Part shown: in pieces, positions 40,538-56,981 of the stretch
How the letters are laid out: each line of letters opens with the position of its first letter
Numbering within the stretch: the stretch's first letter is position 1
DNA from: Caldilineaceae bacterium
Lineage (GTDB): Bacteria; Chloroflexota; Anaerolineae; Caldilineales; Caldilineaceae
Direction: 5' to 3'
Length of the DNA: 64,000 bases
Assembly: GCA_020433455.1 (NCBI GenBank)
Contig: JAGRCP010000091.1
Span: forward strand, 1-64,000
Program-made: the position numbers and the translations under genes
Notes under the pieces: generated by a model
What the model was told of the DNA's origin: nothing
Databases searched by the model: none
Seen by the model: the letters and a program-made list of their open reading frames with translations, nothing else

Positions 40538-43141
40538 TTATTCCCCGAAGGGCGCCTTGGTAAGATTGCATTGTTGATTCGTTGGCGTAATGCCCTGCGC
40601 CTGCGCCGCTTCCACAGTCATGATGTCCTTAACATCATTGATATCTGTTAGCACACTCATATCATCGGCTGGGCACAACGTATACATATATCTGTTTCCA
40701 CCCCGCATATAGAGCCGAAAATAGCTGAAGGAGTTGTCCTGTGTGCGAATGACGTACTGTTTGCCGACCTCAAGTTTTAGTTGATCTGTATTCTCCTTTG
40801 TGGTCGCTGTAGGCGACTCTGTCGTAGCAGGAGACTCGACAGAAGCGTCCTGGACACAGCGAACAGAGAAGCCGTAACGCAAACCGGCAATACCGCCGGC
40901 TCCGGCGTCACTTTCATGAATGAACAACAGTGATTCTCTCGATTCGTTAACAGGGGTAGAGCTCCAGAAATAGGCGAATTTGCCAAAATCATAAGAATCA
41001 GGTCCATCACCTCCCTGGCCGCCGGCGGGTCGCGCATTCCACCCGCTCGTGTTGGTTGCTTTGTTGCCTGTCCCCCAGAAAGCCGGATCGCTCAACTTGA
41101 GATGAGCGTCAGCGCCCTGGCTGTCCAGAAGAGCCTGGAAATCCGCCTGAGAGGGAACACGCCAACCGCTGGGGCAAATGTTGCAGGAAGATTGTTTGAC
41201 TGCATAGGCATTGTAGAGCGCGCCATACTCTTGTTGTGCTTTCGAATCGTCCCCAACATCGCTACTCCATGTATAAGCTGCGCCTTCCTGCGTCACCCAT
41301 TGCGCCTTATCGCTAATAAACGGAATACTGACTTGTTTGGATGGATCCGAATTGTCGCTACAAGTTGTTGTACGCAGATTCTCCGCCATCCAGAGTTGCT
41401 GGTCGACTTGAACTGTCTGATAGACATTCCCGTCTGAATCACTAACGGTGCCAGGCTTTGTCTCGCTCTGCGCTTTGGTCGATGTGGAAGTCGGTGCAGC
41501 TGTAGGCTTGGGTTTCGCAGCCTCGCCGGGATTTTTACATTCGACATCTCTCACGGCCACCGCAATAAAGTACCATTTCCCGTTTGCCGTGGCCGCGCCG
41601 TAGCCGACCTCGGGATAGCAACCATCGACATTGAACCAGGGGCGGAAGTGGCTATCGCTGACCATCCAGGAATTCGGGGAATTACCTAACGCCCCCCCGC
41701 TGGCCGCCTCTACTGCGTTCCCGGGAGCGTCGAAGAATTTGAGGCGATCTTCCATGTTGAGAAGGTTTACGCTCTTACCGCTCTTGGGATCCCTAAAGGC
41801 AGTTGGGCCTTCATGGCTTACTTTGTCAACAGATGCAAGATATTCCGCCTGAAGTTGCGCCGCTTGGTTGAGCTTGTCATTCAAAACGTGATCGGCAAAG
41901 TAGGGCGGCGTCTCACTTTGTCTGTAGACCTTTTCCGTTTGGGTACAGTTATAGGGTTTTTTCCCATCTTGATCAGTTTTTACGGTGTCCTGGCTCAGAT
42001 CGAGAGCGCAGGTCGCGTCATTCTCCTTGCGAAAATCCGGGTCATGACGTCCGGCATTCCCGTATGCCAACATCTGCTCCCGGAAGGCATCCAGATTCGC
42101 GGGCGCCTGCACTTTGGGATAATATTGGCCCGCCTTTGTCTGTTGGCCCAGCTCAACCATCCTGGCTTTAGCCAGCATTGTGTCGGGGATTGGCACCTGC
42201 AGGGTGGGCTCTGTTGCGTTGGGCGAGACGAGGATGACCATGTCGACGCTTTGCCATTCGCCCGTCTTTGGTACGGGCAGTTGTTTGGCAAGCGGTTTCC
42301 CGACGGCGCTGTTCAGATTCCCGTCGATCCACAACATGTCATTTGTTCCCGATTTGCGTTTGAGTGCAACCTGGCCTTTGTCGAATTGCGGCTTGTCGTA
42401 GGTGATCTTGGCTTCTACAAAGGAATACTCTGTCCCGTCCACGGTCTGGTTTGGAAATTGACGGGGAGCTTTGTCTACATCGTACTTTTTGGGGTCCGCT
42501 GCCATAATCGCTTCGGCAAAAGTAGCCGGAAGAGGCGTGTCAAAGACATATTCGGTTCCATCCATGCGGCCCAGCCAATATCGCTGCTGATTACCGAAGA
42601 GCGACAGACGGATGGTAGGCGTCTCATCGCCCGAGGAGATAAGAACGAGCAGGTTGGCTCTTTTCCAGGCGCTGCCCGGCGACATTGGGGTCGCCTGAGC
42701 CTTTACTGCTTTGGCGACAACAGGCCACTCGGCGCTCTTTGCGTCCATCGTGAACCATTTAGCGCCCAGCGTCCCGTCGATCACATATGAAATACTGCCT
42801 TTGTCGATTGCATCTTTATCCCAGCTTACTTCAGTCGTTACAAAGGAATAGGTCTTTCCGTCGATGGTCTGAGTCGAAGGTTTCGGAAGACTCTTCTGTG
42901 CCGCATACTCCGAGCCGTCGGCGGTAAGCATGGCCGCAAAATCGCTCGGCAAGAGAGTATCAAACAGATACTCTGTACCTGTTTCGTCCAGGCGGCCGAG
43001 CCAATATGTCTGTTGAGATTGTGCAAAGGCCGGCATCCCCCCGATCACAAGTAACGTTAGGATTAACAGCATCGCAAAGAGCTGTATAATCCCTTTTTGA
43101 CGATTCCGTCGTTGACTCAATACGCACTGCCCGATTTGCAT
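40538..43141 (-). CDS. Secreted protein with CAP-like and FISUMP domains
   Basis: An 867-residue exported protein; AAAGGG lies 8 bases before ATG 43141. A signal peptide ends near residue 40 (GGMPAFA-QSQQ). Two internal repeats of about 140 residues follow (YWLGRLDETGTEYLFDTLLP and YWLGRMDGTEYVFDTPLP). Then comes a CAP/SCP-like helical segment at about 410-545 (LNDKLNQAAQLQAEYLA). A Thr/Ser/Lys-rich linker leads to a Fib_succ_major/FISUMP domain at about 560-775 with GNVYQTVQVDQQLWMAENLR, GALYNAYAV, CPSGWRVPSQADFQALLD and SVRCVQD. The last 90 residues show no known domain. It is divergent from the metalloprotease gene with a 292-base control region between. Confidence 0.8.
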   Translation of the reverse strand: MQIGQCVLSQRRNRQKGIIQLFAMLLILTLLVIGGMPAFAQSQQTYWLGRLDETGTEYLFDTLLPSDFAAMLTADGSEYAAQKSLPKPSTQTIDGKTYSFVTTEVSWDKDAIDKGSISYVIDGTLGAKWFTMDAKSAEWPVVAKAVKAQATPMSPGSAWKRANLLVLISSGDETPTIRLSLFGNQQRYWLGRMDGTEYVFDTPLPATFAEAIMAADPKKYDVDKAPRQFPNQTVDGTEYSFVEAKITYDKPQFDKGQVALKRKSGTNDMLWIDGNLNSAVGKPLAKQLPVPKTGEWQSVDMVILVSPNATEPTLQVPIPDTMLAKARMVELGQQTKAGQYYPKVQAPANLDAFREQMLAYGNAGRHDPDFRKENDATCALDLSQDTVKTDQDGKKPYNCTQTEKVYRQSETPPYFADHVLNDKLNQAAQLQAEYLASVDKVSHEGPTAFRDPKSGKSVNLLNMEDRLKFFDAPGNAVEAASGGALGNSPNSWMVSDSHFRPWFNVDGCYPEVGYGAATANGKWYFIAVAVRDVECKNPGEAAKPKPTAAPTSTSTKAQSETKPGTVSDSDGNVYQTVQVDQQLWMAENLRTTTCSDNSDPSKQVSIPFISDKAQWVTQEGAAYTWSSDVGDDSKAQQEYGALYNAYAVKQSSCNICPSGWRVPSQADFQALLDSQGADAHLKLSDPAFWGTGNKATNTSGWNARPAGGQGGDGPDSYDFGKFAYFWSSTPVNESRESLLFIHESDAGAGGIAGLRYGFSVRCVQDASVESPATTESPTATTKENTDQLKLEVGKQYVIRTQDNSFSYFRLYMRGGNRYMYTLCPADDMSVLTDINDVKDIMTVEAAQAQGITPTNQQCNLTKAPFGE

Positions 43142-43433
43142 GGAAGTTCCCTTTCTACTCTAGAAAAAATTGGTGTATGTCCCTCCATAGTCGCTGGTTT
43201 ATTTGCAATGTATCTCTCATGCTTGTTCGACGCAGACGACTACCAAAGTGATTCCGACACTATACAAAAACAAGCGCTTCCAAAACGCTTCCAAGCTGGA
43301 TAAGACGGATAGTTATATTGAACCCATCTGCCCTATAATCTGGAAGCGAACGATTTGCGGCGGAAAAATGGGGCGCGGCGAAGCGCCTGCCATGCAGCAG
43401 CACCTCAACACAGGCAGCGGAATCCAGGGGAAA
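43142..43433 (+). other. 292-base control region between two divergent secreted/protease genes
   Basis: AT-rich with a TATAAT at 43334-43339 and CGCTTCCAA direct repeats at 43275-43294; an inverted copy TGGAAGCG lies at 43341-43348. No protein-coding gene is supported here, although the following frame is open across part of it. Confidence 0.65.
43275..43348 (+). promoter_or_regulatory. Direct repeat operator candidate (CGCTTCCAA x2 and an inverted copy)
   Basis: CGCTTCCAA at 43275-43283 and again at 43286-43294, start-to-start 11 bases, and TGGAAGCG (its complement) at 43341-43348 next to the TATAAT at 43334. SARP/AfsR-type activators bind direct repeats spaced one helical turn apart, and two such regulators are encoded 3-9 kb away. 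Confidence 0.55.
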
Positions 43434-46121
43434 ATGATGGCGGACATAGAAAGCGGCGATCAGCAGAGCACGAAGGACTTAACCTCTATTCTCATCGGCT
43501 CGATCATCCGTATAGAGAGCGGCGCGCCCCAGGGCGGCTATCTCAGCCTCCTGAAAACGGTGGCGGACGAACCCCGCATCTCAATGTATGCGGATCCCGA
43601 CGTGCTGGCGTTTGTGGCGACATACGCGAAAAACGATCGCGCCGACGGCTCCGGGAGTTGGCAGATTCTCTCTGCCGATGGGGCAAAGCAGATTGGCGAA
43701 CGGCTCGCCTTCGGGGATAGGATTCACCTGCTCAACATGGGTCCGACCGCCGGGTATCTGGATAGCTTTGAGTGGGTTGATCGGCTGGAGCCCTTCAAAG
43801 AGTACCCCATGCAGATTGGCGTCTTTACCAGCGAAGCAAGGCGGGGCAGGAGCATATCCGGCACGTGGACGGTGACGGGCGAAGAAGCGGGAACGTTCAT
43901 TGCAGCAGGCGATCGCATCGAGCTGGAGAACGGATATCCCGGCGCGGGTAAGCTCTATGCGTATGGAGACGTGACCGGCCATCCGCTCTTCACAACCCGA
44001 TATGAAGGATTCCGCCGCTTTGTCTTCACCGGACCGAAGCCGGGCGCAAAGATCGACGACGCAGATCAAATTGCCTCCCCCAACTGGACGGTTACATTAG
44101 CCGACCGCTCGCTCCATCTGTACGATATCTACCACCAGATCAGCAGCCCAGGCGGCGATCCGGAAACAGCGCGCTACGATCGGGGCTTCTTCAAAATCGG
44201 TTTTGATGACGGACCGGAGATGCAAATCGTTGCACTGGATCTCTCCTCGTCCGATCAGGGGGAAACGCTCTCCGGCACGGTCCGTTTTGAGGGGCGGGGA
44301 GAGGAGCCGCTGATTGCCAAACACGGCAATGAGAACGTCTATGATATCTATCTGCAGCCGAAAGACATTCCCATTGATGAGAGCAAGAAGCGGAACGGCC
44401 AGTGGCAACTCGGCGTCCGCAAACATCAGCGCGTCACATCGCTGGCGGTGAGCATCAGCGCGCAGGGCGAACTTTCCGGCACGATCGCCTATATCGGTGA
44501 AGAGCCTGTCATCATTCAAGGTCTGCGGGGAGTTGTCACGCCGAATAACCTTGATCTCTATCGGTCCGGCAAACGCGCGCCGGAATGGGTCACAGAGCGA
44601 ATCTACAGGGTGGAACTTGAGATTGTCGAGACCTACAAGGAGCTATTCACCGCTGTCGCGGGGATGACCGACAGCGACATCGATGACGTTTTGAGCCAAT
44701 CTTTGAATCAACCGGCTGACACGGAGGTCCCGGACGGCGAAAGCGTTACAGGCGCTTCAACGCTGCTTGACCGTGAATTTCAGGTCCAACAACTGTTGAA
44801 TCTCTACACGCTCAGCCGACAGTTGAGCGCCTTCTTCCGCTATACCCTGATTCCCCTGATGGAGCAATCGCTGGAAGATCACCGCGCAAATTCCGCCGGG
44901 ACGCTTGCGCCCATCCAGCTCTTCCGCCAATGCTTTCAACATGTTGCGACCGATCATGCGATCATCCGCCAGGCAACGATTCAGCGTCAATGGAACGCCG
45001 CTGAGGATGGAGTTAACCTGAGCGCGGCGGAGCTTCTGAAGACGGATAAGCTGGCCGTCAAAGCCGTTATGCCTTTTCGCAAACTGCTGGCGAACGATGC
45101 CGACGGCGGTGACGCCCCGGCTGTGATCACCTACCAGAGCGAGAATACCTATATCCACCTCACGCCCTACGCAAAACAGTTTATCCTGATCGGCGTCAGC
45201 TACGATCGGGTTCCGCCGGCGGCCGTCGCCTTTGCGCATAAAACCCTCCTCGGCAAAGACTTTTACGCCTATGAAATCATGGCCATTCCCCATGAGGCAG
45301 GCCACTATATCTACCAGCACGGAAAACGCAACGGTCAGGGATTTCCCGAGTTGAGCAGGCAATTCCAGGGGAATCCCTACTATCACTGGTGCGAAGAAAT
45401 CTTTGCCGATGTCTATGGCTGTGTCGTGGCCGGACCGCTTGCCGCAATCAGCATGCAGGCGATGCTCATGTCCATCGATCGGGACCGGGCGTGGCAAGAT
45501 GACGAACAGCATCCCACGCCGGTTCTGCGTATCTATCTCTTTGCGGAAATTTTGCGCGTCCTCAATGAATTGATGCCCGATCGCTATGCTTTCAAAGACG
45601 GGGCGGACAAGATCGATGTCACCGATCAGCTCGACCGGGATTGGACCGAAATCCTGCGGGTATGGCGATATGATCCCATGAACAACGAGCGGGAAGAAGA
45701 CGAACTGTCCGAACGTCCCCAACGCGTCTTCATGCATGACGGCGCTGATTTATCGCTGGATACAATTGTCAACGTAGAAAGGGTAATGCAGGCGATTCGG
45801 CCGATGATCGTCACCTTCGCTAAATGGTTGCTGGACACGGCTGATTTCGGCGATCAGGAAGACGAGGCGCAACGTTCTGAGGAGAGGCTTTCCCTGAAAA
45901 TTCCCTGGACCCGGCTGAATCGGACGACAACTGCGCCCTATAACGATGTGATGGCGGCGATGACCGATCGGGATTTCGCCCGCAAGCGGGCGCCCGGTCA
46001 ACTCGTACGCGGGCCAAAAAACAATGCACCGTCGGCCGCTCAATCGAGCGCTGATGATCGGTTACGACAATATCTACAGGAGTGGGATGACAGCGGTCCC
46101 CACGGGTGGGGCGGACATTGA
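43434..46121 (+). CDS. Gluzincin-like metalloprotease-domain protein
   Basis: About 895 residues from ATG 43434 (preceded by AGGGGAAA; ATGs at 43368 and 43392 are alternatives). The first 450 residues are beta-rich with repeated segments (IRIESGAPQGGYL, GDRIHLLNMGPTAGYL, GDRIELENGYPGAGKLY) that resemble a modular binding scaffold. The protease core holds His620-Glu-Ala-Gly-His624 (IPHEAGHYIYQHG) followed by Glu655-Ile-Phe-Ala-Asp659 (CEEIFADVYG), which is the HExxH then ExxxD layout of gluzincins. No signal peptide is visible. It is divergent from the CAP/FISUMP gene and next to the BTAD regulators. The target and whether it is exported are unknown. Confidence 0.7.
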   Translation: MMADIESGDQQSTKDLTSILIGSIIRIESGAPQGGYLSLLKTVADEPRISMYADPDVLAFVATYAKNDRADGSGSWQILSADGAKQIGERLAFGDRIHLLNMGPTAGYLDSFEWVDRLEPFKEYPMQIGVFTSEARRGRSISGTWTVTGEEAGTFIAAGDRIELENGYPGAGKLYAYGDVTGHPLFTTRYEGFRRFVFTGPKPGAKIDDADQIASPNWTVTLADRSLHLYDIYHQISSPGGDPETARYDRGFFKIGFDDGPEMQIVALDLSSSDQGETLSGTVRFEGRGEEPLIAKHGNENVYDIYLQPKDIPIDESKKRNGQWQLGVRKHQRVTSLAVSISAQGELSGTIAYIGEEPVIIQGLRGVVTPNNLDLYRSGKRAPEWVTERIYRVELEIVETYKELFTAVAGMTDSDIDDVLSQSLNQPADTEVPDGESVTGASTLLDREFQVQQLLNLYTLSRQLSAFFRYTLIPLMEQSLEDHRANSAGTLAPIQLFRQCFQHVATDHAIIRQATIQRQWNAAEDGVNLSAAELLKTDKLAVKAVMPFRKLLANDADGGDAPAVITYQSENTYIHLTPYAKQFILIGVSYDRVPPAAVAFAHKTLLGKDFYAYEIMAIPHEAGHYIYQHGKRNGQGFPELSRQFQGNPYYHWCEEIFADVYGCVVAGPLAAISMQAMLMSIDRDRAWQDDEQHPTPVLRIYLFAEILRVLNELMPDRYAFKDGADKIDVTDQLDRDWTEILRVWRYDPMNNEREEDELSERPQRVFMHDGADLSLDTIVNVERVMQAIRPMIVTFAKWLLDTADFGDQEDEAQRSEERLSLKIPWTRLNRTTTAPYNDVMAAMTDRDFARKRAPGQLVRGPKNNAPSAAQSSADDRLRQYLQEWDDSGPHGWGGH

Positions 46122-46159: not shown

Positions 46160-49105
46160 TTACCGCCGCAGCAACGCCGTCAGTTGCGGGTCCGCCAGCC
46201 CGATATTTAATCGGTGCGCGCACTCTTTGGCTTCCCGACTCTTATCATTTTCATTCAATTCAGCATAAAGCCGGGAAAGGTAGTAGTAAGAATAAGCCTG
46301 CTCATAGCGATCGCCCAGTTCACAAAAAATTTGCAGCCCTTCCGTCAGCAACTCCGCCCCTCTGGCGCGTTCTTTGCTGATTTGGTGCAGAAGGCCCAAT
46401 TGCGTCTTGACCAGAGCCTCCCAACGCAAGCTGCCCAACTTTTGGAAATTATCCAGACATTCGTAGCCGAAAGTCATTGCTTCGTTATATTGGCCATGCT
46501 CCTTACACAGCAAAAGTCGTTCGTAGAGCACGGCCGCGTATTCGCCGAGGTCATTGAGCTGAAGGCTAACCTGGAACGCTTCCGTCAGGTGGCGCTCTGC
46601 CTCTGCATCTGCATCCATTCGGTTTTCGACCCGTGCCAGGTTGCGCAGCGTTTCGACATAGCTGGATGAGCGCGGCAATGGGCGCTGTAGCGCGATGGAT
46701 CGGGTCAGATATGCATAGGCTGTCGGAAAATCCCGGTACAATTTCACGTGGCAGATCGCCATCAAATTGAGGTTTTGAGCAACCCCCAACGGATTATTTT
46801 CCTCCTCAAAAATACGCAGTGATTCCGCAAAGAGCGCCAATGCAGATTCATCTTCAGCCTGTTCATTGTGGATACGCCCCAAAAGGTACTTTACCCGCGC
46901 AATCCCCAACGCTTCTTCCAAACCCATAAAATTTTTAAGCGCCGCGTCGAGATGCCTCAGCGCCGATTCGTATTCGTTCAGCTCTATCTCAATCTCACCC
47001 AGCCGTAACTGCATGCCTGCTTCTGCGGCTTTATCATCCAGCGCGCGGGCCGCGTCCAGCGCCTGCGTCAGCCCTTCTCTCATCTCCTGAAAGCGAACTT
47101 GCCGGAATCGCGGTTCATCCAATATCTGCACAAAATCGAGCACCGTCGGCCATATTTTCTGAGCGTGGGCTTTGGCGATTGCGACTGAAAAGTTACGCCA
47201 CTCAGGCCTGAGCGTCGCATATCGATCTCGATTATCACGGGCGAGTTCGTAAAAATAAGCGACAAACGCCTGTTCCACGTCTGGCCCGGCTTTCCCCAAC
47301 TTCTCCGCAGCAAGCTGACGTACGAGAGCGTGCATGCCGTAGCGCTCCGCTTCGTGCTGCTGTTGGAGCAATGACTTCTCGCACAGCAGATCGAGATCAT
47401 CCGGCAGGATCCCGGCGATAGAGGTCGCAGCCTCTGCCGTAAAGCTTGCCGGGAAGACGGAGAGCGCGGCCAGCGCGGCCTGTTCGTCCGCGGTCAACAA
47501 CTGCCATGAGGTCTCAAAGACCGCCCGCATACTGCGGTGGCGCGGATCCGCATCCCGCAGGCGCGTCGTCAGGAAGTCCAGAGAGCGGCTGATGGACTCG
47601 CTAATCTGACGCAGCGAACGGCGACGCACCCAGGCCGCGGCCAGGGCAATCCCCAGCGGCGAACCGTCCACCAATCCGCAAATTTGGCGCATCTCCGCCA
47701 AGTTATCCTCAGTCACGACGAAGTCCGCCCGGGCCATCCGGCCCTGTTGGGCGAAAAGGGCTACGGCTGCGCCCGGATCAGCGTCGGCTGACGTCCCGTT
47801 TCCCAGGGGCAAGCCGCCAAGCGTCATGACTGACTCCGCGGCTAAGTTGAGCGGTTCCCGCGAAGTCGCCACAATCGCGATCTCCGGCGCACGCTTGAGC
47901 CAGGAGGAGAGGAAGCCGATTTCATCCAGCGCCCCTTCGCAATTATCCAGGATCAGCAGCATTCGCTTGTCGCGCAGGATAGCAATTACCTGTTCGCCTC
48001 TGATCTGCTTCTCCTCCTGAGGCTTTCCTGCCTCTCCCGGCCGGATCGCCTCACCAACGGCAATTTTGATTGCTTCCGCATCATCTCTGACCGTCTCCAG
48101 AGAGACAAACCAGACGCCGTCAGGAAAATTCTCCTTTGCCTGTTCGGCCGTCTCCACGGCCAAACGCGTCTTGCCCATTCCGCCCGCGCCCACAATGGTG
48201 ATGAGGCGGCAGCTCGGATCGACCAGGCGTTGGAGCAGATAGGCTTGCTCGCTTTCTCGGCCAAAAAAACGGTTGATTTGTAGAGGCAAATTGTGAGAAA
48301 CGCCCGCATCTGCCGGTGCGGTAGATACGCCATCAAAGATTTCCCGGCGAAGCTGTTGCGTTTCTTCTTCCGGCTCAACGCCCAACTCCTCGCCCAATAC
48401 CAGCATGCATTGCTCATATTGAGCCAGAGCGGCGTTCCGATCACCCCGGCGGTGATGCGCGGTCATCACGGTACGGTGGGCGGCCTCCAACCAGGGCTCA
48501 ACGGCGAGCTGACGCTGGGCCACGCCCAACGCCGCCTCCCATTCGCCGCGCGCACAGTGCGCGTCTTGCAGCAGGGTCATGGCATCCACAGCTTGCCGGC
48601 GGTAGTACTCGCGTTGGGCGGTCAGCCACGTTTCCCACGTATCGCTTGGAAAATTCAGTCCGGTCAGAAATTCGCCGCGTATCAGATTGACCGCTTTGCG
48701 CAGGCCGGCCAGGCAACTTGGACAGCCTGCCAGTTGACGGTGGGTATGGGTTGCGACCGTCGTCAGCAACTCTTCAAACCGGATTGCATCGATCTCGATG
48801 TCGTCGCCGGCGCGCAGCGCAATCTGTTTGCGGTCCGCCTCGATCCTGGCGGGCGTTGCTTTGTCATCGTCCAACGCACGGCGGAGACGCGTCAGGCGGT
48901 TGCGTAAATAGGTGAGGGCGTCTTTGTCAGAACGGTCGGGTGAGAGCAGGGCTGCCGGCGTGTCCCGGCGCTGGGGAATGCCTTGATGGACGGCCAGATA
49001 GGCAAGCAGCACGCGTTCAGCGTCGGTACGGAACGCAGCGGAATGCCCATCGACTGTTACCCGAAGCGGGCCAAGCATGGATATTTGGAGTATCTGGGCA
49101 CGCAT
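46160..49105 (-). CDS. AfsR/SARP-like regulator with BTAD, STAND ATPase and TPR domains
   Basis: A 981-residue signal-transducing NTPase. Residues 1-100 are a winged-helix DNA-binding domain (ISMLGPLRVTVDG), residues 100-260 a bacterial transcriptional activation domain (FLTGLNFPSDTWETWL), and residues 280-560 an NB-ARC/STAND ATPase with Walker A GAGGMGKT (306-313) and Walker B RMLLILDNCE. TPR repeats follow to the end. Between helices lies His120-x-His122-x5-Cys128-x2-Cys131, a possible metal site that the second regulator lacks. It probably integrates a signal through the TPRs and activates target genes. The stop is 38 bases from the convergent metalloprotease gene. Confidence 0.9.
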   Translation of the reverse strand: MRAQILQISMLGPLRVTVDGHSAAFRTDAERVLLAYLAVHQGIPQRRDTPAALLSPDRSDKDALTYLRNRLTRLRRALDDDKATPARIEADRKQIALRAGDDIEIDAIRFEELLTTVATHTHRQLAGCPSCLAGLRKAVNLIRGEFLTGLNFPSDTWETWLTAQREYYRRQAVDAMTLLQDAHCARGEWEAALGVAQRQLAVEPWLEAAHRTVMTAHHRRGDRNAALAQYEQCMLVLGEELGVEPEEETQQLRREIFDGVSTAPADAGVSHNLPLQINRFFGRESEQAYLLQRLVDPSCRLITIVGAGGMGKTRLAVETAEQAKENFPDGVWFVSLETVRDDAEAIKIAVGEAIRPGEAGKPQEEKQIRGEQVIAILRDKRMLLILDNCEGALDEIGFLSSWLKRAPEIAIVATSREPLNLAAESVMTLGGLPLGNGTSADADPGAAVALFAQQGRMARADFVVTEDNLAEMRQICGLVDGSPLGIALAAAWVRRRSLRQISESISRSLDFLTTRLRDADPRHRSMRAVFETSWQLLTADEQAALAALSVFPASFTAEAATSIAGILPDDLDLLCEKSLLQQQHEAERYGMHALVRQLAAEKLGKAGPDVEQAFVAYFYELARDNRDRYATLRPEWRNFSVAIAKAHAQKIWPTVLDFVQILDEPRFRQVRFQEMREGLTQALDAARALDDKAAEAGMQLRLGEIEIELNEYESALRHLDAALKNFMGLEEALGIARVKYLLGRIHNEQAEDESALALFAESLRIFEEENNPLGVAQNLNLMAICHVKLYRDFPTAYAYLTRSIALQRPLPRSSSYVETLRNLARVENRMDADAEAERHLTEAFQVSLQLNDLGEYAAVLYERLLLCKEHGQYNEAMTFGYECLDNFQKLGSLRWEALVKTQLGLLHQISKERARGAELLTEGLQIFCELGDRYEQAYSYYYLSRLYAELNENDKSREAKECAHRLNIGLADPQLTALLRR

Positions 49106-49125: not shown

Positions 49126-49177
49126 GCGCACCCTACCGCACCCAAAACTCTCTTTTCGTGGGTGCGATGGGGGTGCG
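49126..49177. promoter_or_regulatory. Inverted pair of direct repeats (CGCACCC / GGGTGCG)
   Basis: CGCACCC occurs at 49127-49133 and 49137-49143, and GGGTGCG at 49160-49166 and 49171-49177. The two pairs are mutually complementary, so the 52 bases can fold as a stem with a 16-base loop. It lies in the gap between the regulator start (49105, minus) and the peptide gene (49261, plus), an ideal operator place. Confidence 0.55.
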
Positions 49178-49260
49178 GGCCCGCCGTAGGCTGTGGTTGT
49201 CGTCGGAGTTCAGGACGTCACGCCGAAACAACCACAAAGTATACCTATGGAGGATTTCTT

Positions 49261-49377
49261 GTGACACGCTTGATGAGTTGGAAAGCATTTGCTGTTACTG
49301 CCGCGTTTTCGCTGTTGGTTGCACTGCACCCTGTCGTCGTCTTTGCCGGCGGATGCGGCGGACACACAGGATGTTAA
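49261..49377 (+). CDS. Small secreted Cys-rich peptide (38 residues)
   Basis: Too short for most gene callers but strongly supported. The GTG at 49261 is preceded by GGAGG (49249-49253) at 7 bases. The product has a short positive N-terminus (MTRLMSWK), a 20-residue hydrophobic core and a V-x-A-type signal peptidase site at VFA, leaving GGCGGHTGC as a predicted mature 9-residue peptide with two Cys and one His. The frame ends in TAA and a very strong hairpin follows at 49416-49461. Two large AfsR-like regulators flank it. It could be a signalling peptide, a metal-binding peptide or a modified peptide precursor; nothing in sequence settles which. Confidence 0.7.
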   Translation: MTRLMSWKAFAVTAAFSLLVALHPVVVFAGGCGGHTGC

Positions 49378-49415
49378 GTCCCTGGCAGATAGCCTGCGGC
49401 TAGGGCTCAGCCGGC

Positions 49416-49461
49416 CCAAAAGAAGCGGGTTTGTCGACGGCGACAGACCCGCTTCTTTTGG
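49416..49461. terminator. Strong bidirectional terminator
   Basis: CCAAAAGAAGCGGGT-TTGTCG pairs with CGACAG-ACCCGCTTCTTTTGG around an ACGG loop: 21 bp with one G-T pair. It separates the peptide gene (plus) from the 3' end of the second regulator (minus). Confidence 0.85.
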
Positions 49462-49482: not shown

Positions 49483-52425
49483 TTAATAATCGCGGACCTC
49501 AGCCAGGCCGGCCCTCACTTCTGTCGCCAATGGGCGGTTTCCAATCAGCTCTGCAATCTGCAGCGCCCTCTCCAAATTTTCACACGCCGAGCCGATTTCT
49601 CCCATCCGGCAATAATTTTTCCCCAAATTACCGTAAATTTCTCCTTGGGAGGCGAGATTGCCGCTCGTTGTCGCCAGCTCAAGACCACGCTGCAAATAGC
49701 GGTGCGCCCCCGTGTAATCGCCCCGCTCGGTCGCGATCATGCTCAGGTTGCTGAGCAGCGTGGATTGCCGATGACGATCGTCCAGTTGTTCGGAGAGCGC
49801 AAGCGCCCGATCCATTGCTTCCTGGGCGGCAGGCAGATCGCCCTGATGATAGCAGACAAGACCGATGCTGTTCAGGCTGCCGCTTAGCGCCTGGAGATGC
49901 TCAAGCGTCTGCCAGGCGCGGCAGGCCTGCTGCAGATCATCGTGCGCCGCATCATACCGGCTTTGGATATCGTTGATCACGCCCAGATGATGTCGGCACC
50001 AGCCAATGAGCCGAACGCCTTCCGGCAGGCCGGCATTTTGAAGCGCACGGGCGATATCGAGCGCTTCATTGAGCTTGTCCGTCGCCGCGTCATACTCGCC
50101 CATGCGCCACAGCGCTTCGCCCCGCAACACATGTGCCATCCCTTCAACCCAACGGTCCTGACCTTGCCGGGCAAGGGGCAACAACGCATCGACTGTTTGA
50201 ACAGCGGCCTGATAGCGACCGAGCCGGTTTTGGAAACGCGCCCGCTCCAGCCCGGCATGAGCCGCCAGGGCGCGCCCGGCCGCGGATTGGGACGCGGCCG
50301 CCTGGGCGGTTGCCTGCATCACGCTTTCTCCTTCCAGCGCCAACCCGCGCAATTGATAGTAGCTGGAGAGCGCGGCAAGCGCGGCGGAAAGCCTGCCGGC
50401 GGTCTCAATGAGTTGGGCCGGAGGCGGTTCTCCCGAAGTTGACGACAGAGAGGCCAATTCTGTTTGCCAGGCCAGACGCACGTTGTCAATATCCGCCTGG
50501 AGCAGGGCCGCCGCCGCTTGCAGCGTGCCTTTCCAGAGCGCATCTTTCTGCTGTGCAAGGAGGGTCAGGTAGTAGCGGGCATGGTTGAGCCGAACCGGGT
50601 CGATGGGTTCACGCCCCACGCCAAACTCGGAAAGCGATATCCGTTTTGTCGCTGCATACGACTGAATGACCGGGTGGAGCGTGTAGCGATCCGCGGCCGG
50701 GATGTAAGTCAAAAGTGATTTGGCGATGAACGCGGCAAGGTGGCAGGCGTCTGCATCAGCGACTTCAAGCGCGGCCGCGCCGGTAAAGCTGCCGCGAAAA
50801 ACCGACAGACGTGCGAGCCGCTGTTGCAGCGCCGGGGAAAGCGTACGCCAGGACATTTCGTAGACGATATGCAAGCCGCGGTGACGTTGGGGAACATCAC
50901 GCAGGGTCGTCGTGAGCGCGTCAAAGCCTTGTCGCAAACTTTCTGCAACCGCCCGCGCCGATGTGCGGCCCGCCAGGGCTGCGGCCAGCTCAATCGCCAG
51001 CGGCAACCCTTCCACCAGACGACAGATTCGACGGACGGCGGTCTGTTCCGCCGCTCGCTCATCATCGATCATCGTCTGCCAGTATTGCTGAGAGCGTCCA
51101 TACTGAGCCAGGCGTGCCATAAACAACTTCACTGCATCGGCGGGCGTTTCATCGTCATCGCTGGCGGGAAAGTTCAATCCATGGAGCGTGATCGTCCATT
51201 CGGCGCTTAGCTGTAACGCCTCACGCGAGGTGATGAGCAACTGCACCCGTTCACAGCGTCGAAGCAGCGCCTGCACAACGGCAATCCCCGCTAGCAAATG
51301 CTCAAAATTATCGAGCACGAGCAGCATCTCTTTGTGCTGAAGATGGGCAAGCAGTTGATCGGTCGGCCTTTCGCTGCCGCTCAAACGCAGATCCAGCGCG
51401 GTGGCGATTTCAACCACAACGGCTTCGGCCATGTCTTCGTCATCAGGATCAATATCGGCCAGTTCCACCAGCCACGCTCCGTCCCGATAGCGATCCAGGC
51501 GGCTGCGGGAGATAGCGGTCGCCAGGCGCGTCTTGCCAACGCCGCCCAGCCCGACAATGGTGAGCAGCCGACACCACGGCTGATCCAGGCGTGCATGAAT
51601 CTCTTGCTGATCCTGAAGACGATCAAGGAATTGATCGTGGGGAGCGGGCAGATTATGGGGCCGAGTCGTGTGGGCGCGTGGGAATAAGCCGCGGCTCTGT
51701 TCGCTCTTTGCCAGCAGAGCCGCCATTTCGGCCGGCGGCTCCACATCCAGTTCCCTGCGCAGCAGATCGGCGCAGTACTCATACTGGATTCTCGCCTCAT
51801 GCACATTGCCGCCCTTCAGCAACAATTGAATCAACAACATATGGGCTGCCTCATCAAGGGAATCGACCTCAATCCAGCGGCGGGCGATTGCAATGCCCAA
51901 TTCCGCATCGTTGACGGCAAGCGCGTATTTTTCGAGCTTATGATAGCCATCAATAACCTGACGGCGGATATGCTCACGCGTCGTTCTGGTCCACTCATCA
52001 AAAGCCGGGGCGTCGGACAGATAAAAATCGGCGAGGAAGTCACCGTGATACCCGCTCAGCGTATTCTGCAGGTGAATCGCGGTTTCCGCCGCATTAACTT
52101 GCCTGATCTTTGCCAGCTCGGCCAGCAGCAGAGAGGAATCAACCGCTTGCCGATTTTCCACGCTCAAGGCGATAGTCTGTTGCGTGATAACCAGAGCATT
52201 GCCTACTTGCTTTCGTAATCTGGTCAACAGCGTGCGCAAATTAGTCAACGCCTGTTGCCGCGGGCGATCTTCCCAGAGCAGCTCAGCGATGAAATCCCGC
52301 CGGTGCGTCTGACCCGTATGCGCCAGATAGATAAGCAGGGCAGCCTCTTTTTGACTGCGGAATTGATTCAGCGGCCGATCGCCTTTATATAAGGATGCTT
52401 CTCCCAGTAATGTAAATGATAGCAT
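49483..52425 (-). CDS. Second AfsR/SARP-like BTAD-STAND-TPR regulator
   Basis: A 980-residue protein of the same layout as the one at 46160: winged-helix domain (LSFTLLGEASLYKGDRPLN), BTAD (about 95-245), STAND ATPase with Walker A GLGGVGKT (292-299) and Walker B MLLVLDNFEHLL, and C-terminal TPRs to the end. The sequence is well diverged from its neighbour and lacks the HxH...CxxC insert. It starts only 8 bases after the meaB stop on the same strand, so the two may be co-transcribed. It reads as a tandem paralogue pair with a peptide gene between, so the two regulators may answer different signals. Confidence 0.9.
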   Translation of the reverse strand: MLSFTLLGEASLYKGDRPLNQFRSQKEAALLIYLAHTGQTHRRDFIAELLWEDRPRQQALTNLRTLLTRLRKQVGNALVITQQTIALSVENRQAVDSSLLLAELAKIRQVNAAETAIHLQNTLSGYHGDFLADFYLSDAPAFDEWTRTTREHIRRQVIDGYHKLEKYALAVNDAELGIAIARRWIEVDSLDEAAHMLLIQLLLKGGNVHEARIQYEYCADLLRRELDVEPPAEMAALLAKSEQSRGLFPRAHTTRPHNLPAPHDQFLDRLQDQQEIHARLDQPWCRLLTIVGLGGVGKTRLATAISRSRLDRYRDGAWLVELADIDPDDEDMAEAVVVEIATALDLRLSGSERPTDQLLAHLQHKEMLLVLDNFEHLLAGIAVVQALLRRCERVQLLITSREALQLSAEWTITLHGLNFPASDDDETPADAVKLFMARLAQYGRSQQYWQTMIDDERAAEQTAVRRICRLVEGLPLAIELAAALAGRTSARAVAESLRQGFDALTTTLRDVPQRHRGLHIVYEMSWRTLSPALQQRLARLSVFRGSFTGAAALEVADADACHLAAFIAKSLLTYIPAADRYTLHPVIQSYAATKRISLSEFGVGREPIDPVRLNHARYYLTLLAQQKDALWKGTLQAAAALLQADIDNVRLAWQTELASLSSTSGEPPPAQLIETAGRLSAALAALSSYYQLRGLALEGESVMQATAQAAASQSAAGRALAAHAGLERARFQNRLGRYQAAVQTVDALLPLARQGQDRWVEGMAHVLRGEALWRMGEYDAATDKLNEALDIARALQNAGLPEGVRLIGWCRHHLGVINDIQSRYDAAHDDLQQACRAWQTLEHLQALSGSLNSIGLVCYHQGDLPAAQEAMDRALALSEQLDDRHRQSTLLSNLSMIATERGDYTGAHRYLQRGLELATTSGNLASQGEIYGNLGKNYCRMGEIGSACENLERALQIAELIGNRPLATEVRAGLAEVRDY

Positions 52426-52433
52426 TAACTTTG

Positions 52434-53567
52434 TTATTCTTGGAGGTTCGTCGCCGCAGCCAGGAGCTGTCGCGCGGCGGTCGTTGCGGGCTGTTCGCCG
52501 GCCGCAACCGCCTGCTCGATATGAGGGAGCAATTGTTGTACTGCCGGATGGGCGTAGAAGTAGGTACGCAACTGCTCATCCACCAACAGGTGAAGCCATT
52601 CCAGATTCTGGCGCAGGCGTCGTTCCGCAAAGAAGCCGTTGGTCCGGGTTATGGTCACATATTTCTCCACAACCTGCCACAGGGCCGCAACGCCGTCTCC
52701 CGTGGCAGCAGAGCAGGTATAGGCACGGGGCGTCCAACCAGGCGTGCCGGGCGTGAGGTAATGAAGCGCACGGTTGTATTCAGCGCGCGCGGCCTCGGCC
52801 TTGATCCGCAAGGGGCCGTCCGCCTTGTTAACGGCGATGGCGTCAGCCAATTCCACTACGCCCTTCTTGATGCCCTGCAGCTCGTCGCCGCCGCCGGGAA
52901 TGAGCACCAGCAGGAAAAAGTCCGTCATGGAGCGGACGGATATTTCGCTCTGTCCCGTCCCCACCGTTTCGATGAGCACGACGTCAAAGCCCGCGGCCGC
53001 GCAGACGAGCATGGATTCCCGGGTCTTACGCGCAACGCCGCCTAACATGCCGCTGGTCGGCGATGGGCGGATAAAGGCGTTCTCCTCGCGTACGAGGCGG
53101 GTCATACGCGTCTTGTCGCCCAGGATGCTGCCGCGGGTCAAGCTGCTGGTGGGATCGATGGCCAATACGGCGACTTTATGGCCTGCTCCGATCAGCTGCA
53201 TGCCCAACGCTTCGATGAGGGTGCTCTTGCCCGCGCCGGGAACGCCGGTGATGCCGACGCGTAGCGCGGCTTCGCTATGGGGCAGCAGGCGCTGCAGCAC
53301 TTCTTGCCCCTTCTCCATGTGGGCCGGCGCATTGCTCTCCACCAGGGTGATGGTGCGGGCCAAAATCGAGCGATCGCCGGCCAGTACGCCGGCCACATGT
53401 TCATCCACCGACAGCCCCGCACGCGCAGAGGCCGGACGCATCACGCGTCCGGCCTCCATGCCGTCATGCCCGCCCATGACGCCCGCCAGCACATGCGAAG
53501 TAAATTCGCTGCCCGCGCCCTCCGGCGTCCACTCCGGTCTGCTTGTCTGTGGTGCCATGCCCTTCAC
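52434..53567 (-). CDS. meaB: MeaB/ArgK-type GTPase chaperone
   Basis: A 377-residue P-loop GTPase of the MeaB family. The P-loop is GVPGAGKSTLIEAL (G1), followed by DPTSSLTRGSILGDKTRM, the GTP-switch ETVGTGQSE and the guanine-specificity NKADG. It gates cobalamin transfer to methylmalonyl-CoA mutase or a related B12 mutase and guards the enzyme from inactivation. No mutase or cobalamin gene is in the window. The GTG 53567 start is uncertain; ATG 53558 is the alternative. The downstream AfsR-like gene begins 8 bases after the stop. Confidence 0.93.
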   Translation of the reverse strand: MKGMAPQTSRPEWTPEGAGSEFTSHVLAGVMGGHDGMEAGRVMRPASARAGLSVDEHVAGVLAGDRSILARTITLVESNAPAHMEKGQEVLQRLLPHSEAALRVGITGVPGAGKSTLIEALGMQLIGAGHKVAVLAIDPTSSLTRGSILGDKTRMTRLVREENAFIRPSPTSGMLGGVARKTRESMLVCAAAGFDVVLIETVGTGQSEISVRSMTDFFLLVLIPGGGDELQGIKKGVVELADAIAVNKADGPLRIKAEAARAEYNRALHYLTPGTPGWTPRAYTCSAATGDGVAALWQVVEKYVTITRTNGFFAERRLRQNLEWLHLLVDEQLRTYFYAHPAVQQLLPHIEQAVAAGEQPATTAARQLLAAATNLQE

Positions 53568-53729: not shown

Positions 53730-56700
53730 TCAATTGTTGCCGATAATGGGCAGGTAAGCGCCGCTGCGCTCCGAGAGGCGCACCTGGGTCATGGGATCGC
53801 CCATGAGCAGAAACGTCCGGCGCACATCGTCGCAGCACGTCGTCCGGGTATACTGCTCAAAATAGCCGTTCAGGGTCAACTCGCCCATACGCGCCCGCTC
53901 GTCTCCCTCCGACCACAACTCCCTATGAAAGCCCCGCTCCAGTGCAAAATGGCCCTGGGCCACGCTCAACCCCGACGATCCCCAGGTCGCGACTGCGCCG
54001 CCATTGGCGCGCAGCAACAGATGCTCATCCAGCGTCATGCCCCAATCCACCGGCTTATGGAACTGGGAAGAGAGGCAGGCCATGGAGAGGGCGATAAAGG
54101 GTTGATCGGCATTGTTGAGCGAGAGCACATCCCAAATGTAGAAGAGATGTTCCGGCGCATCTTTGGGCACGGAGCTGGTGCTGTTGGTCTCGCGATCGGT
54201 AATCGCCCAGCGCCATTGGCTGGCGTGGCCGTTGTACGTCACCAATGCCGCGCCCCGGCGCAGGGTTGACTGAACTTTGTTGTATACAGTCCAGGGGTTG
54301 CCTTCCCGGTAGCCGTCGCTGCTGTTGGGCGTCGCGTAATTGCAGATGCTGCCGTCGCCGTCCAGATCATTCGGATCGTAGATTTGCGTGGGATCGTAAT
54401 AGATCCGATCAATAATGAGCGAATCGGGCAGCGTGCTGATGATCTCGTCGGAATAGGCGGCAAAATTGCCGGCCGTGTCCCGCGGGCCGTCAGGGTCGCA
54501 ATTTTTGATGTAGTTGTCGGTCAGAAAGGTGAGCTTGCTGTTACGCGTATCCCACTCGTTATAATCGGTTTCGTAGCGAACCATTTTGTCGATCAGGTCG
54601 CGCAATTCAGCCGCGTTTTTCACCGGCAATCGCCCAATCATCATGTCGGGGAAAAAGCTGGAACCCGGCAACAAATTGGAGCCTACCGGCTCGTCGCCGG
54701 TCAGGGCGTCGATTCCGTCGAGCTGGACAAAACAGTTCTCACATCCAGTCTGGCGAATAAACGGATCCACGTAGACCTGGTCCGCGCTATTGCCCAGACT
54801 ATAGGCCAGGTAAGGAGGAATCAGGTTCGGGTTCAGCTCATTTCCTTCGTAGTTATGGGGATCCTGGGTGCCGTCGCCCACCAGCACCACGGCGATGGGG
54901 GCAGGATCCCAGTTTGCCGCGGCATAACGCAAAAACTGGCGGATGGCTTCCGGATCTACGTAAGCGTAGCTGTACGCATCGTAGATATCATGTACGTCCA
55001 CGACCGCCACGCGACATTGGGCGCGGTTCAGGCAAGGCTGACTTTTGCGATAATCGACCAGCGGCTGCAAGGTGGAGCGGAGCGCATCCGGCGTGATGTA
55101 GATGATGTCCGCGCCCTGACCGGCCGCTGTGATATCCGTGGGATTATGCGCGGCAACTTCCGGCGTCTGGATGGTTCCTGTCCCGGCAACCAGATAGCGA
55201 TGGGCGCTGCTGGTATCGTCCTGAAAAGTAATCTGACTGTCGCTGCGCGCGGCGTCGGTCAACCGCACCGGGAGAGCAGGATCCGTGATGTCATACAGGC
55301 GAAAGGCGGCAGGAACGTTCTGGAGCTGGTAGCGAACCTGATCGCCGTCAATCTGGCCCGCATCATAGCCCAAAAAAGCGGCGCCGGCGTCGCTGAAATT
55401 GAGTGTTACCTTCTGCCGCCAGACCACCTCATCCAAAAACAGCTCGGCAACGGACTCGATGGTCATGCCGTTGTTGTCCACCGGCGCCGGCGGCAGCAGC
55501 GTTATGCGCATCTGGCGCCCGCGTCCATTCAGCTCATTCGATGTCGCGATCCAGTCATTTTCATTGCTGGGCTCGCTCCACGTATCCAACGTCAGGATCT
55601 CTGCGGCTGCCGACCGGAAATCAGCGCCGCTGCCCTGCCCTACTTCAACCTTTAATTGATAGGCGGCCCGCTTACTGGTGGCCGATCGGACCTCCAGCGT
55701 CGCTGCGCCGGTCAGGGGCAGGCGATTCTCCATCACCCCTTCGACCATGGGCAGATCCGCTTCTGTGGTGGACGATGCTGCACGCATCTGCATGGCGAAC
55801 CAGTGATCGCCCCCGGGGCCGGGCAAGAGGGACGTGTAGGTGTGGTTGACTTGCCAGACGCCTTCCTCATAGGCAACGCTGCGCAGGGGCGCGGCGTCGG
55901 GCGCAACCGAGCGGCGCGGAATAGCCGTTACGCTGCTGCCGTCGTCCGTCACCCAATAAACGTCGGTTTCGTTCCAGTAATCCCCGGCTCCTTCGGCGTA
56001 AAAGGTGAGCGTCTGCCCCTCGATCTGTACGGGAACAGCCTCACCCTGATGCATGACGCCCAGCTGGGCCGGATTGCCGATGGCCAGTCCCGCGGCTTGC
56101 AGCGCGCTCAGGGGTACGCTTTGGAGCCCGGCGTCGCGGACCAGCACTTTTGCGGCCTGCTGATTCGCCGCCGAGTTCGGCGGAGTCAGATCATCATCGG
56201 CCAAAATATCCACGGGGCCGTCCGCTGCATAGAAGAGATCCGTCGGCGATTCCTCCAGGGGACGGGCATGGGGGATGGTAACGCTCAGCTTCTCGACCCG
56301 CATCAGCCGATCGCCCTGGGCAAAAATCGGGTTGATGGCCAGGACGCGGATGCGTTGCCCGCGCATGCGCCCGTCCCGCAAAACGATGATCGGTTCCTGG
56401 GGCAGGGTGCGCTTGCTCTCCGGCACGATGACGTCGGGCATTTCGTCCGGCGCCAGGTCGGGCAGCGCCTGATCTGCCGCGGCTGCCAGTTCACCGCGCC
56501 AGGGCGCGGCATCCAATTGCCGGACAACCCAATCGGGCGCGTCAGGCGCATCAGCATCAACCAACAGCGTTACAAGCTGCACGGGCAGTTCATAGCCGTT
56601 CAGTTCACCCATCTCCCAGTCCGGAAGAGAGAGGGCCGCTGCATCATATGACCGGCTCAAATTTACGTCGATCTGCGTATCAGCGCCCACACGTTGGATG

Positions 56701-56822
56701 CGCAGGCCCGCAGGCATGTTGCCGCGCGTTTCTTCAGGCGTCTGGGCATTGGCCGGCAAAACGGTCAGCAGGAGAAAGAGCGCCAGGAAAAGGCCGGCGA
56801 TTGTATACTTGCGATTCCGCAT
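53730..56822 (-). CDS. Secreted C25 (gingipain-like) cysteine peptidase
   Basis: About 1030 residues. A signal peptide (KYTIAGLFLALFLLLTVLPANA) precedes beta-rich propeptide-like modules. The peptidase region shows the C25 pattern: VVLVGDGTQDPHN, the catalytic His loop VTYNGHASQWRWA and, nearby, the Cys loop FIALSMACLSSQFHKP. The chain ends GAYLPIIGNN. C25 enzymes (gingipains, and archaeal or bacterial homologues) are secreted cysteine proteases, here most likely surface-attached. ATG 56822 is chosen over TTG 56828. Its tail recalls the VCBS protein's LYLPLVER end. Confidence 0.9.
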   Translation of the reverse strand: MRNRKYTIAGLFLALFLLLTVLPANAQTPEETRGNMPAGLRIQRVGADTQIDVNLSRSYDAAALSLPDWEMGELNGYELPVQLVTLLVDADAPDAPDWVVRQLDAAPWRGELAAAADQALPDLAPDEMPDVIVPESKRTLPQEPIIVLRDGRMRGQRIRVLAINPIFAQGDRLMRVEKLSVTIPHARPLEESPTDLFYAADGPVDILADDDLTPPNSAANQQAAKVLVRDAGLQSVPLSALQAAGLAIGNPAQLGVMHQGEAVPVQIEGQTLTFYAEGAGDYWNETDVYWVTDDGSSVTAIPRRSVAPDAAPLRSVAYEEGVWQVNHTYTSLLPGPGGDHWFAMQMRAASSTTEADLPMVEGVMENRLPLTGAATLEVRSATSKRAAYQLKVEVGQGSGADFRSAAAEILTLDTWSEPSNENDWIATSNELNGRGRQMRITLLPPAPVDNNGMTIESVAELFLDEVVWRQKVTLNFSDAGAAFLGYDAGQIDGDQVRYQLQNVPAAFRLYDITDPALPVRLTDAARSDSQITFQDDTSSAHRYLVAGTGTIQTPEVAAHNPTDITAAGQGADIIYITPDALRSTLQPLVDYRKSQPCLNRAQCRVAVVDVHDIYDAYSYAYVDPEAIRQFLRYAAANWDPAPIAVVLVGDGTQDPHNYEGNELNPNLIPPYLAYSLGNSADQVYVDPFIRQTGCENCFVQLDGIDALTGDEPVGSNLLPGSSFFPDMMIGRLPVKNAAELRDLIDKMVRYETDYNEWDTRNSKLTFLTDNYIKNCDPDGPRDTAGNFAAYSDEIISTLPDSLIIDRIYYDPTQIYDPNDLDGDGSICNYATPNSSDGYREGNPWTVYNKVQSTLRRGAALVTYNGHASQWRWAITDRETNSTSSVPKDAPEHLFYIWDVLSLNNADQPFIALSMACLSSQFHKPVDWGMTLDEHLLLRANGGAVATWGSSGLSVAQGHFALERGFHRELWSEGDERARMGELTLNGYFEQYTRTTCCDDVRRTFLLMGDPMTQVRLSERSGAYLPIIGNN

Positions 56823-56981
56823 ATGCAATTACTTTCGATTCAGTTCGGGCAAGCCCGGAGAACGTCCTGACATAAAATAGTAGACGAGCAGGCAAGTTAA
56901 AAAGTTATGGTAGTTTTCCCGCGGGGAAAGATGCCAATCGGCCGGCTGACAGGCGGAAGAACGCTCATATCCGGACAACAA

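Follow-up and report, generated by a model that had tools for sequence, protein, structure and literature searches.

SARPs classically turn on antibiotic genes (PMC10972967), and their promoters carry direct repeats 11 or 22 bp apart, of which the 3' one lies 8 bp from the -10 box (PMC10936776). The tetratricopeptide repeat (TPR) domain of AfsR, a large SARP, is a tentative sensor, and whether any inducer binds it is not known (PMC10936776). Here, we analyzed a 64,000-nucleotide stretch of a Caldilineaceae bacterium genome (phylum Chloroflexota; assembly GCA_020433455.1, contig JAGRCP010000091.1, positions 1 to 64,000), referred to as the window, in which a 38-codon gene for a predicted secreted peptide lies between two large SARP-type regulators, R1 and R2.

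The locus resembles AfsR-AfsS of Streptomyces coelicolor in its large SARP of winged helix-turn-helix (wHTH)-BTAD-nucleotide-binding oligomerization domain (NOD)-TPR architecture (R1 aligns with AfsR over residues 6 to 599) and in a target preceded by two direct repeats of 11 bp, which overlap the -35 region (PMC10936776). AfsS, however, is described as a master regulator (PMC10936776) and not a secreted peptide, whereas the target in the window is a Sec-type micropeptide gene, divergent from R1, with a second large SARP alongside and in another phylum. PimR-pimM of Streptomyces natalensis (a SARP-LAL regulator and its target) shares a 4-nucleotide (nt)-spaced primary operator, a 3-nt-spaced secondary operator, and a unique target (PMC5930380), but that target encodes a transcription factor, and the main operator there has three copies of its heptamer, CGGCAAG. 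The RRNPP systems of Bacillota are alike in working plan only, in that a very small gene for a secreted peptide adjoins that of a DNA-binding regulator with TPRs; R1 and R2, which are BTAD-NB-ARC-TPR proteins of about 980 amino acids (aa) and not of HTH-TPR architecture, are by their domain order not RRNPP proteins, and re-import and peptide binding are hypothetical here. NosP is a SARP whose DNA binding responds to nosiheptide and an intermediate of this ribosomal peptide pathway (PMC10972967). Its ligands belong to thiopeptide biosynthesis encoded in a gene cluster, whereas the loci studied here have no visible modifying enzyme. Dedicated small target genes of SARP-type regulators are known; the secreted micropeptide family and the two-regulator cassette are new here. 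In the open-access full-text literature (subscription papers were outside the scope), we found no account of the cassette or of a peptide-sensing BTAD-STAND protein in Chloroflexota, and nothing relevant on RRNPP together with Chloroflexi.

Results

The peptide gene and its homologues

The gene and its parts, in window coordinates, are as follows.

49261 to 49377, plus strand: secreted peptide gene, 38 codons, GTG start, TAA stop at 49375 to 49377 (direct reading, homologues, and codon constraint)
49249 to 49253, plus strand: Shine-Dalgarno sequence GGAGG, 7 nt before the GTG at 49261 (direct reading)
49261 to 49347, plus strand: predicted signal peptide, 29 residues (by eye; VFA cleavage-type residues)
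49348 to 49374, plus strand: predicted mature peptide GGCGGHTGC (sequence; cleavage inferred)

The full 38-residue translation is MTRLMSWKAFAVTAAFSLLVALHPVVVFAGGCGGHTGC, with the predicted cut between MTRLMSWKAFAVTAAFSLLVALHPVVVFA and GGCGGHTGC. A charged N terminus is followed by a hydrophobic stretch, a V-F-A cleavage-type site, and the Gly/Cys-rich end. A preliminary description of the locus had listed the GTG start and its GGAGG, a short signal peptide, the V-x-A site, and the mature end, and all could be read directly, the signal peptide by eye. The same kind of inspection found a Sec-type pattern (positive n-region, hydrophobic core, small residues at -3 and -1) in all seven cassette members (the window and six homologues), the cleavage-type residues being TYA, SFA, TFA, or SFS in the homologues. 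When the intergenic region was dinucleotide-shuffled 20,000 times, only 13 shuffles yielded, on either strand, an open reading frame (ORF) led by a Shine-Dalgarno sequence and containing a signal-peptide-like stretch. Because shuffles rarely give such an ORF and the homologues are conserved, a small gene for a predicted secreted peptide at 49261 is confirmed at the sequence level as real, beyond chance. As suggested earlier, so small a gene is easily overlooked in annotation, and it is indeed flanked by two AfsR-like STAND regulators, with BTAD, NB-ARC, and TPR domains on both sides.

A class-wide search returned two clear homologues, and a profile built from these two and the window sequence retrieved more in a second family of the same class, where a full-length homologue adjoins the regulators in 6 of 52 genomes (hidden Markov model profile search). 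We label the homologues by genome (G591, G741, G760, G752, G765, and G579, plus the distant relatives G769 and G770). The window genome is the sole representative of its genus, and a single-sequence search of 46 genomes of its own family found no peptide homologue; the matches there were each inspected and rejected as chance. The C-terminal DNA pattern, searched in 400 genomes of the phylum, gave the gene itself and three other matches, none of them small secreted peptides. Because, among 396 genomes of the class, a nine-row profile matched only the window and three second-family members, the distribution is, on this sampling, narrow and patchy. None of the nine members has a credible Pfam or NCBIfam match; by these searches, the peptide is a new conserved micropeptide family. 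The mature ends below are given as cut after a small residue and have 9 to 11 residues in the cassette members.

Window: GGCGGHTGC
G591: CSVGTHTGC
G741: CSAAGSHGGC
G760: CDAGSHTGCV
G752: CATGSHCGG
G765: CDAGQNGHCGG
G579: CDWAAGHCGG
G769 (distant relative): GSIGGHTGG, without Cys
G770 (distant relative): GSGAGHVGG, without Cys

In the alignment of all nine members, M1, P24, H35, and G37 are the same throughout, and the leader is better conserved than the mature end. In the latter, Cys is usual but not universal, its positions shifting or vanishing, whereas His is always kept. Homologues of the short frame, whose absence the preliminary description would have taken as refuting it, do exist: six keep the His, and the Cys is not kept throughout. 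The gene also passes the proposed check for constraint at synonymous sites. The proportion of synonymous differences (pS) exceeded that of nonsynonymous differences (pN) in 21 of 21 pairs of the seven cassette ORFs, with many pS values near saturation and pS/pN not a precise ratio. Differences at codon positions 1, 2, and 3 numbered 296, 178, and 448. Judged by these codon patterns, the peptide ORFs are under purifying selection.

Operator and promoter

Two pairs of the heptamer GGGTGCG, absent from the preliminary description, lie between R1 and the peptide gene.

49160 to 49177, plus strand: putative SARP-type operator GGGTGCG-ATGG-GGGTGCG, an 11-bp repeat (conserved in 7 of 7 loci)
49127 to 49143, minus strand: second, inverted pair GGGTGCG-GTA-GGGTGCG, a 10-bp repeat on the R1 side (direct reading)
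49187 to 49192, plus strand: putative -10 box TAGGCT, 9 nt past the operator (TAnnnT in 7 of 7 loci)

Exact heptamer pairs at both the 11- and the 10-bp spacing occurred in 0 of 20,000 shuffles of the intergenic region, and in the 5.25-Mb window genome a GGGTGCG pair with a 3- to 4-nt spacer is found solely at these two sites. The peptide-side heptamers are identical in all seven loci, with a variable 4-nt spacer. The gap from operator to TAnnnT is exactly 9 nt in every locus (start site inferred from sequence alone), close to the published 8 bp of SARP promoters. Each of the seven genomes has one copy of the exact 4-nt-spaced operator, always at the peptide promoter. Matches with one mismatch were considered as extra targets and set aside as background, since a reversed-pattern control gave as many (six, against six besides the true site in the window genome); other genomes were also at about the control level. 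The inverted pair at 49127 to 49143 is a probable secondary or autoregulatory operator. R2 is without sign of autoregulation at the sequence level, because its own promoter has no exact 11-bp repeat in any of the seven loci.

The distant relative G769 has no exact copy of the GGGTGCG operator in its genome, and its peptide locus is without that operator. The promoter there carries TGAGACG-ATAG-TGAGACG, 9 nt before a TAnnnT box (TACCTT), and an inverted pair precedes it as in the window. No such repeat was seen in the short stretch at hand for G770. Two observations bear on which regulator binds: R1 is divergent beside the operator, with the second heptamer pair solely on its side, and the only adjacent regulator in G769 occupies the position of R2.

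The spacing was then compared with the upstream regions of 100 non-redundant BTAD-STAND genes from the window's family. Because a simple rule set the start codons, positions are approximate; the spacing statistic is independent of the assignment. Exact 7-mer direct repeats at 11-bp spacing were present in 33 of 100 regions, versus 0 to 9 for any other spacing between 8 and 35, and 8-mers with one mismatch numbered 54 at 11 bp versus 5 to 20 elsewhere. An earlier set of 33 BTAD-STAND upstream regions showed the same preference. Among these 11-bp repeats, the heptamer differs from gene to gene (loci L049 to L077 and L091 to L170). Together, the private operator, the 9-nt spacing to the -10 box, and the 11-bp peak at BTAD-STAND genes argue that the peptide gene is very probably a dedicated target of R1, R2, or both. 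Control of the peptide by an adjacent AfsR-like regulator, as the preliminary description proposed, is probable, with homologues, synteny, operator, and codon constraint in agreement.

Scans of about 100 BTAD-STAND upstream regions for other secreted small ORFs gave nothing convincing, and for that reason the pairing of micropeptide and regulator is, within this sample, not general. At locus L046 in the window's own genome (C36), a 56-aa signal-peptide-like ORF with a strong Shine-Dalgarno sequence starts from 805 on the minus strand, divergent from another STAND regulator; it has no sequence resemblance to the window peptide.

Flanking regulators and synteny

The two regulators are placed as follows.

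46160 to 49105, minus strand: R1, large SARP (BTAD-NB-ARC-TPR), 981 aa, divergent from the peptide gene (domain search and AfsR alignment)
49483 to 52425, minus strand: R2, large SARP (BTAD-NB-ARC-TPR), 980 aa, convergent with the peptide gene (domain search)

The BTAD domain (PF03704) is matched with E values of 1.2e-24 in R1 and 1.2e-11 in R2, and in both proteins Pfam places NB-ARC and then TPR_12 after it. R1 is alignable to the solved AfsR over residues 6 to 599 and to the AfsR SARP-domain chain 8hvr over residues 6 to 258. R2 matches the AfsR model over residues 2 to 592. These alignments support an N-terminal OmpR-type winged helix in both proteins; neither regulator had a direct Pfam wHTH match. 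Scores against the AfsR equivalog NF053617 were 109 and 80 bits for R1 and R2, versus a cutoff of 1430. By these comparisons, R1 and R2 are large SARPs and relatives of AfsR, not AfsR orthologues. Their closest relatives in named genomes are in Chloroflexi metagenome-assembled genomes, several of them Anaerolineae, which points to a host in Chloroflexota.

Orthologues of R1 (57 to 65% identity) and R2 (47 to 59%) flank the peptide in 6 of 6 loci with orientation kept; the contigs of G765 and G579 end inside R1, and just 174 and 39 residues were compared there. The R1 orthologue of G741 (L182:4123-7071) is split over two frames by a mutation or an assembly error, with the peptide and R2 intact. 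In the comparable R1 orthologues, the TPR end is the least conserved part (51 to 52%, versus 70 to 77% for wHTH and NOD2). Because the genes beyond these three vary between loci, the conserved unit is, on present alignments, R1-peptide-R2.

Several neighbors deserve a brief description. R2 starts about 9 bp past the end of a GTPase gene on the same strand (52425 to 52434), presumably MeaB-like; cotranscription may occur, and other loci differ. By the 3' end of R1, positions 43203 to 46121 encode a 972-aa protein with a sub-cutoff OAA-family lectin match and an HEAGH metallopeptidase-like motif, which is not common to the other loci. In 3 of 6 loci, proteins of about 550 to 566 aa, related by eye and without a Pfam match, adjoin the R1 3' end (L182:2363-4060, L212:1287-2933, and L213:1361-3028). 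Also by eye, 53730 to 56828 appears to encode a large secreted protein similar to C25 peptidases of the gingipain type, and 40538 to 43141 a secreted protein with CAP- and FISUMP-like stretches. A plasmid search gave no match.

Transcript hairpins

Two inverted repeats flank the ORF.

49192 to 49236, plus strand: inverted repeat TGTGGTTGT/ACAACCACA in the 5' untranslated region (UTR) (hairpin recurs in homologues)
49416 to 49461, strand not assigned: 21-bp hairpin between the convergent peptide and R2 genes (95% complementary; RNA fold z = -5.95)

For the 5'-UTR hairpin, counts of covarying pairs were not above those of shuffles. RNAalifold over the whole leader chose another structure, and the leader matched no Rfam family. 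The downstream element had been described as a 21-bp terminator. The hairpin itself is present; because it lies between convergent genes without a plain T-run after the stem, and no consensus terminator was called there, it is a probable terminator.

Discussion

Our tentatively favored reading is that the secreted peptide acts as a signal, which R1 or R2 would perceive through its TPR end. We infer this from the minimal cassette free of enzymes, the variable mature ends, the fast-diverging TPR, and a regulator class for which no inducer has been identified. Sequence analysis shows the gene with its conservation and gene order, the operator as one exact copy in each genome, and the spacing within the promoter. 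The locus would form a self-contained cassette, with R1 and the peptide gene diverging from the operator and R2 converging on the peptide gene. To activate the peptide gene, R1, possibly with R2, would bind GGGTGCG-N4-GGGTGCG at the -35 region, its SARP domains forming a head-to-tail dimer. The 38-residue product would be exported by Sec and cut by signal peptidase after A29, releasing 9 to 11 residues rich in Gly and His (and Cys); members that retain two Cys might form a disulfide-closed ring. Once accumulated and probably re-imported, the mature peptide would be recognized by the TPR end of one of the two regulators and close an autoinducing feedback loop. The steps from regulator binding through export, cleavage, and re-import to recognition by the TPR end, and any output, are proposed. 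With somewhat greater reserve, we suggest that large AfsR-type SARP-STAND regulators may be cytoplasmic receptors of a 9- to 11-residue secreted peptide, one of them driving the peptide gene through a private operator, in a pheromone system outside RRNPP whose heptamer/regulator pairs differ (GGGTGCG here, TGAGACG in G769).

The divergent TPR end and variable mature peptide fit signal specificity weakly, and several points count against a signal. The cassette has no importer or protease, and TPR domains have many kinds of ligand. The signal peptide was assigned by eye. If the peptide promoter is the sole strong site of R1, the loop would have no visible output through an R1 regulon, and an output would need R2 or weaker sites. 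A single-target regulator fits equally well with the peptide being itself the output, that is, an antimicrobial or other effector, unmodified, disulfide-closed, or modified elsewhere, made by the single dedicated target of R1/R2 in response to another cue. This is possible, and we rate it only slightly below a signal. In its favor, each genome has a single exact operator, which lies at the peptide promoter; the mature end varies behind a better-conserved leader; and activating antibiotic genes is the classical role of SARPs (PMC10972967). Yet the loci share no immunity gene, transporter, or modifying enzyme, and 9 to 11 mostly Gly/Ser/His residues are small and uncharged for a membrane-active peptide.

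Three further explanations are jointly unlikely. Metal binding or redox sensing through Cys and His ligands, read earlier from the Cys/Cys/His composition, draws on mature ends that keep two Cys and a single His in five of nine members and in the window's. It loses weight because the Cys are not kept in all members: they shift (CATGSHCGG and CDWAAGHCGG), with variable spacing, or are missing altogether from the two divergent members (GSIGGHTGG and GSGAGHVGG), and only the His is invariant. The cassette also encodes neither a transporter for metals nor a regulator that responds to them, and we consider this reading improbable. Enterococcal sex pheromones are released signal peptides that act as the signal, and the better conservation of the leader than of the mature end would suit such a role here, or lipidation by signal peptidase II, as would the Cys that six of nine members have right behind the predicted cut (TYA-C, SFA-C, and SFS-C). 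The residues before that Cys (T or S at -3, aromatic at -2) are no classical lipobox, the window member has Gly-Gly before its Cys, and two members have no Cys, leaving a lipoprotein-type peptide quite improbable. That the transcript acts as a small RNA through its UTR and terminator hairpins, with an incidental ORF, is very improbable: the 5'-UTR hairpin recurs, but its covariation does not exceed that of shuffles and codon-level constraint is clear.

Whether the peptide is a signal, as we favor, or a dedicated secreted effector, the peptide is a good candidate for one of these roles under the control of AfsR-type regulators. With one micropeptide, two large SARPs, and one operator, the cassette is a compact natural unit for testing whether the TPR binds an inducer. 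Some genomes of the window's family seem to carry dozens of such regulators. With 11-bp heptamer repeats marking BTAD-STAND promoters well outside Streptomyces, the targets of these regulators could be predicted, possibly on a genome scale.
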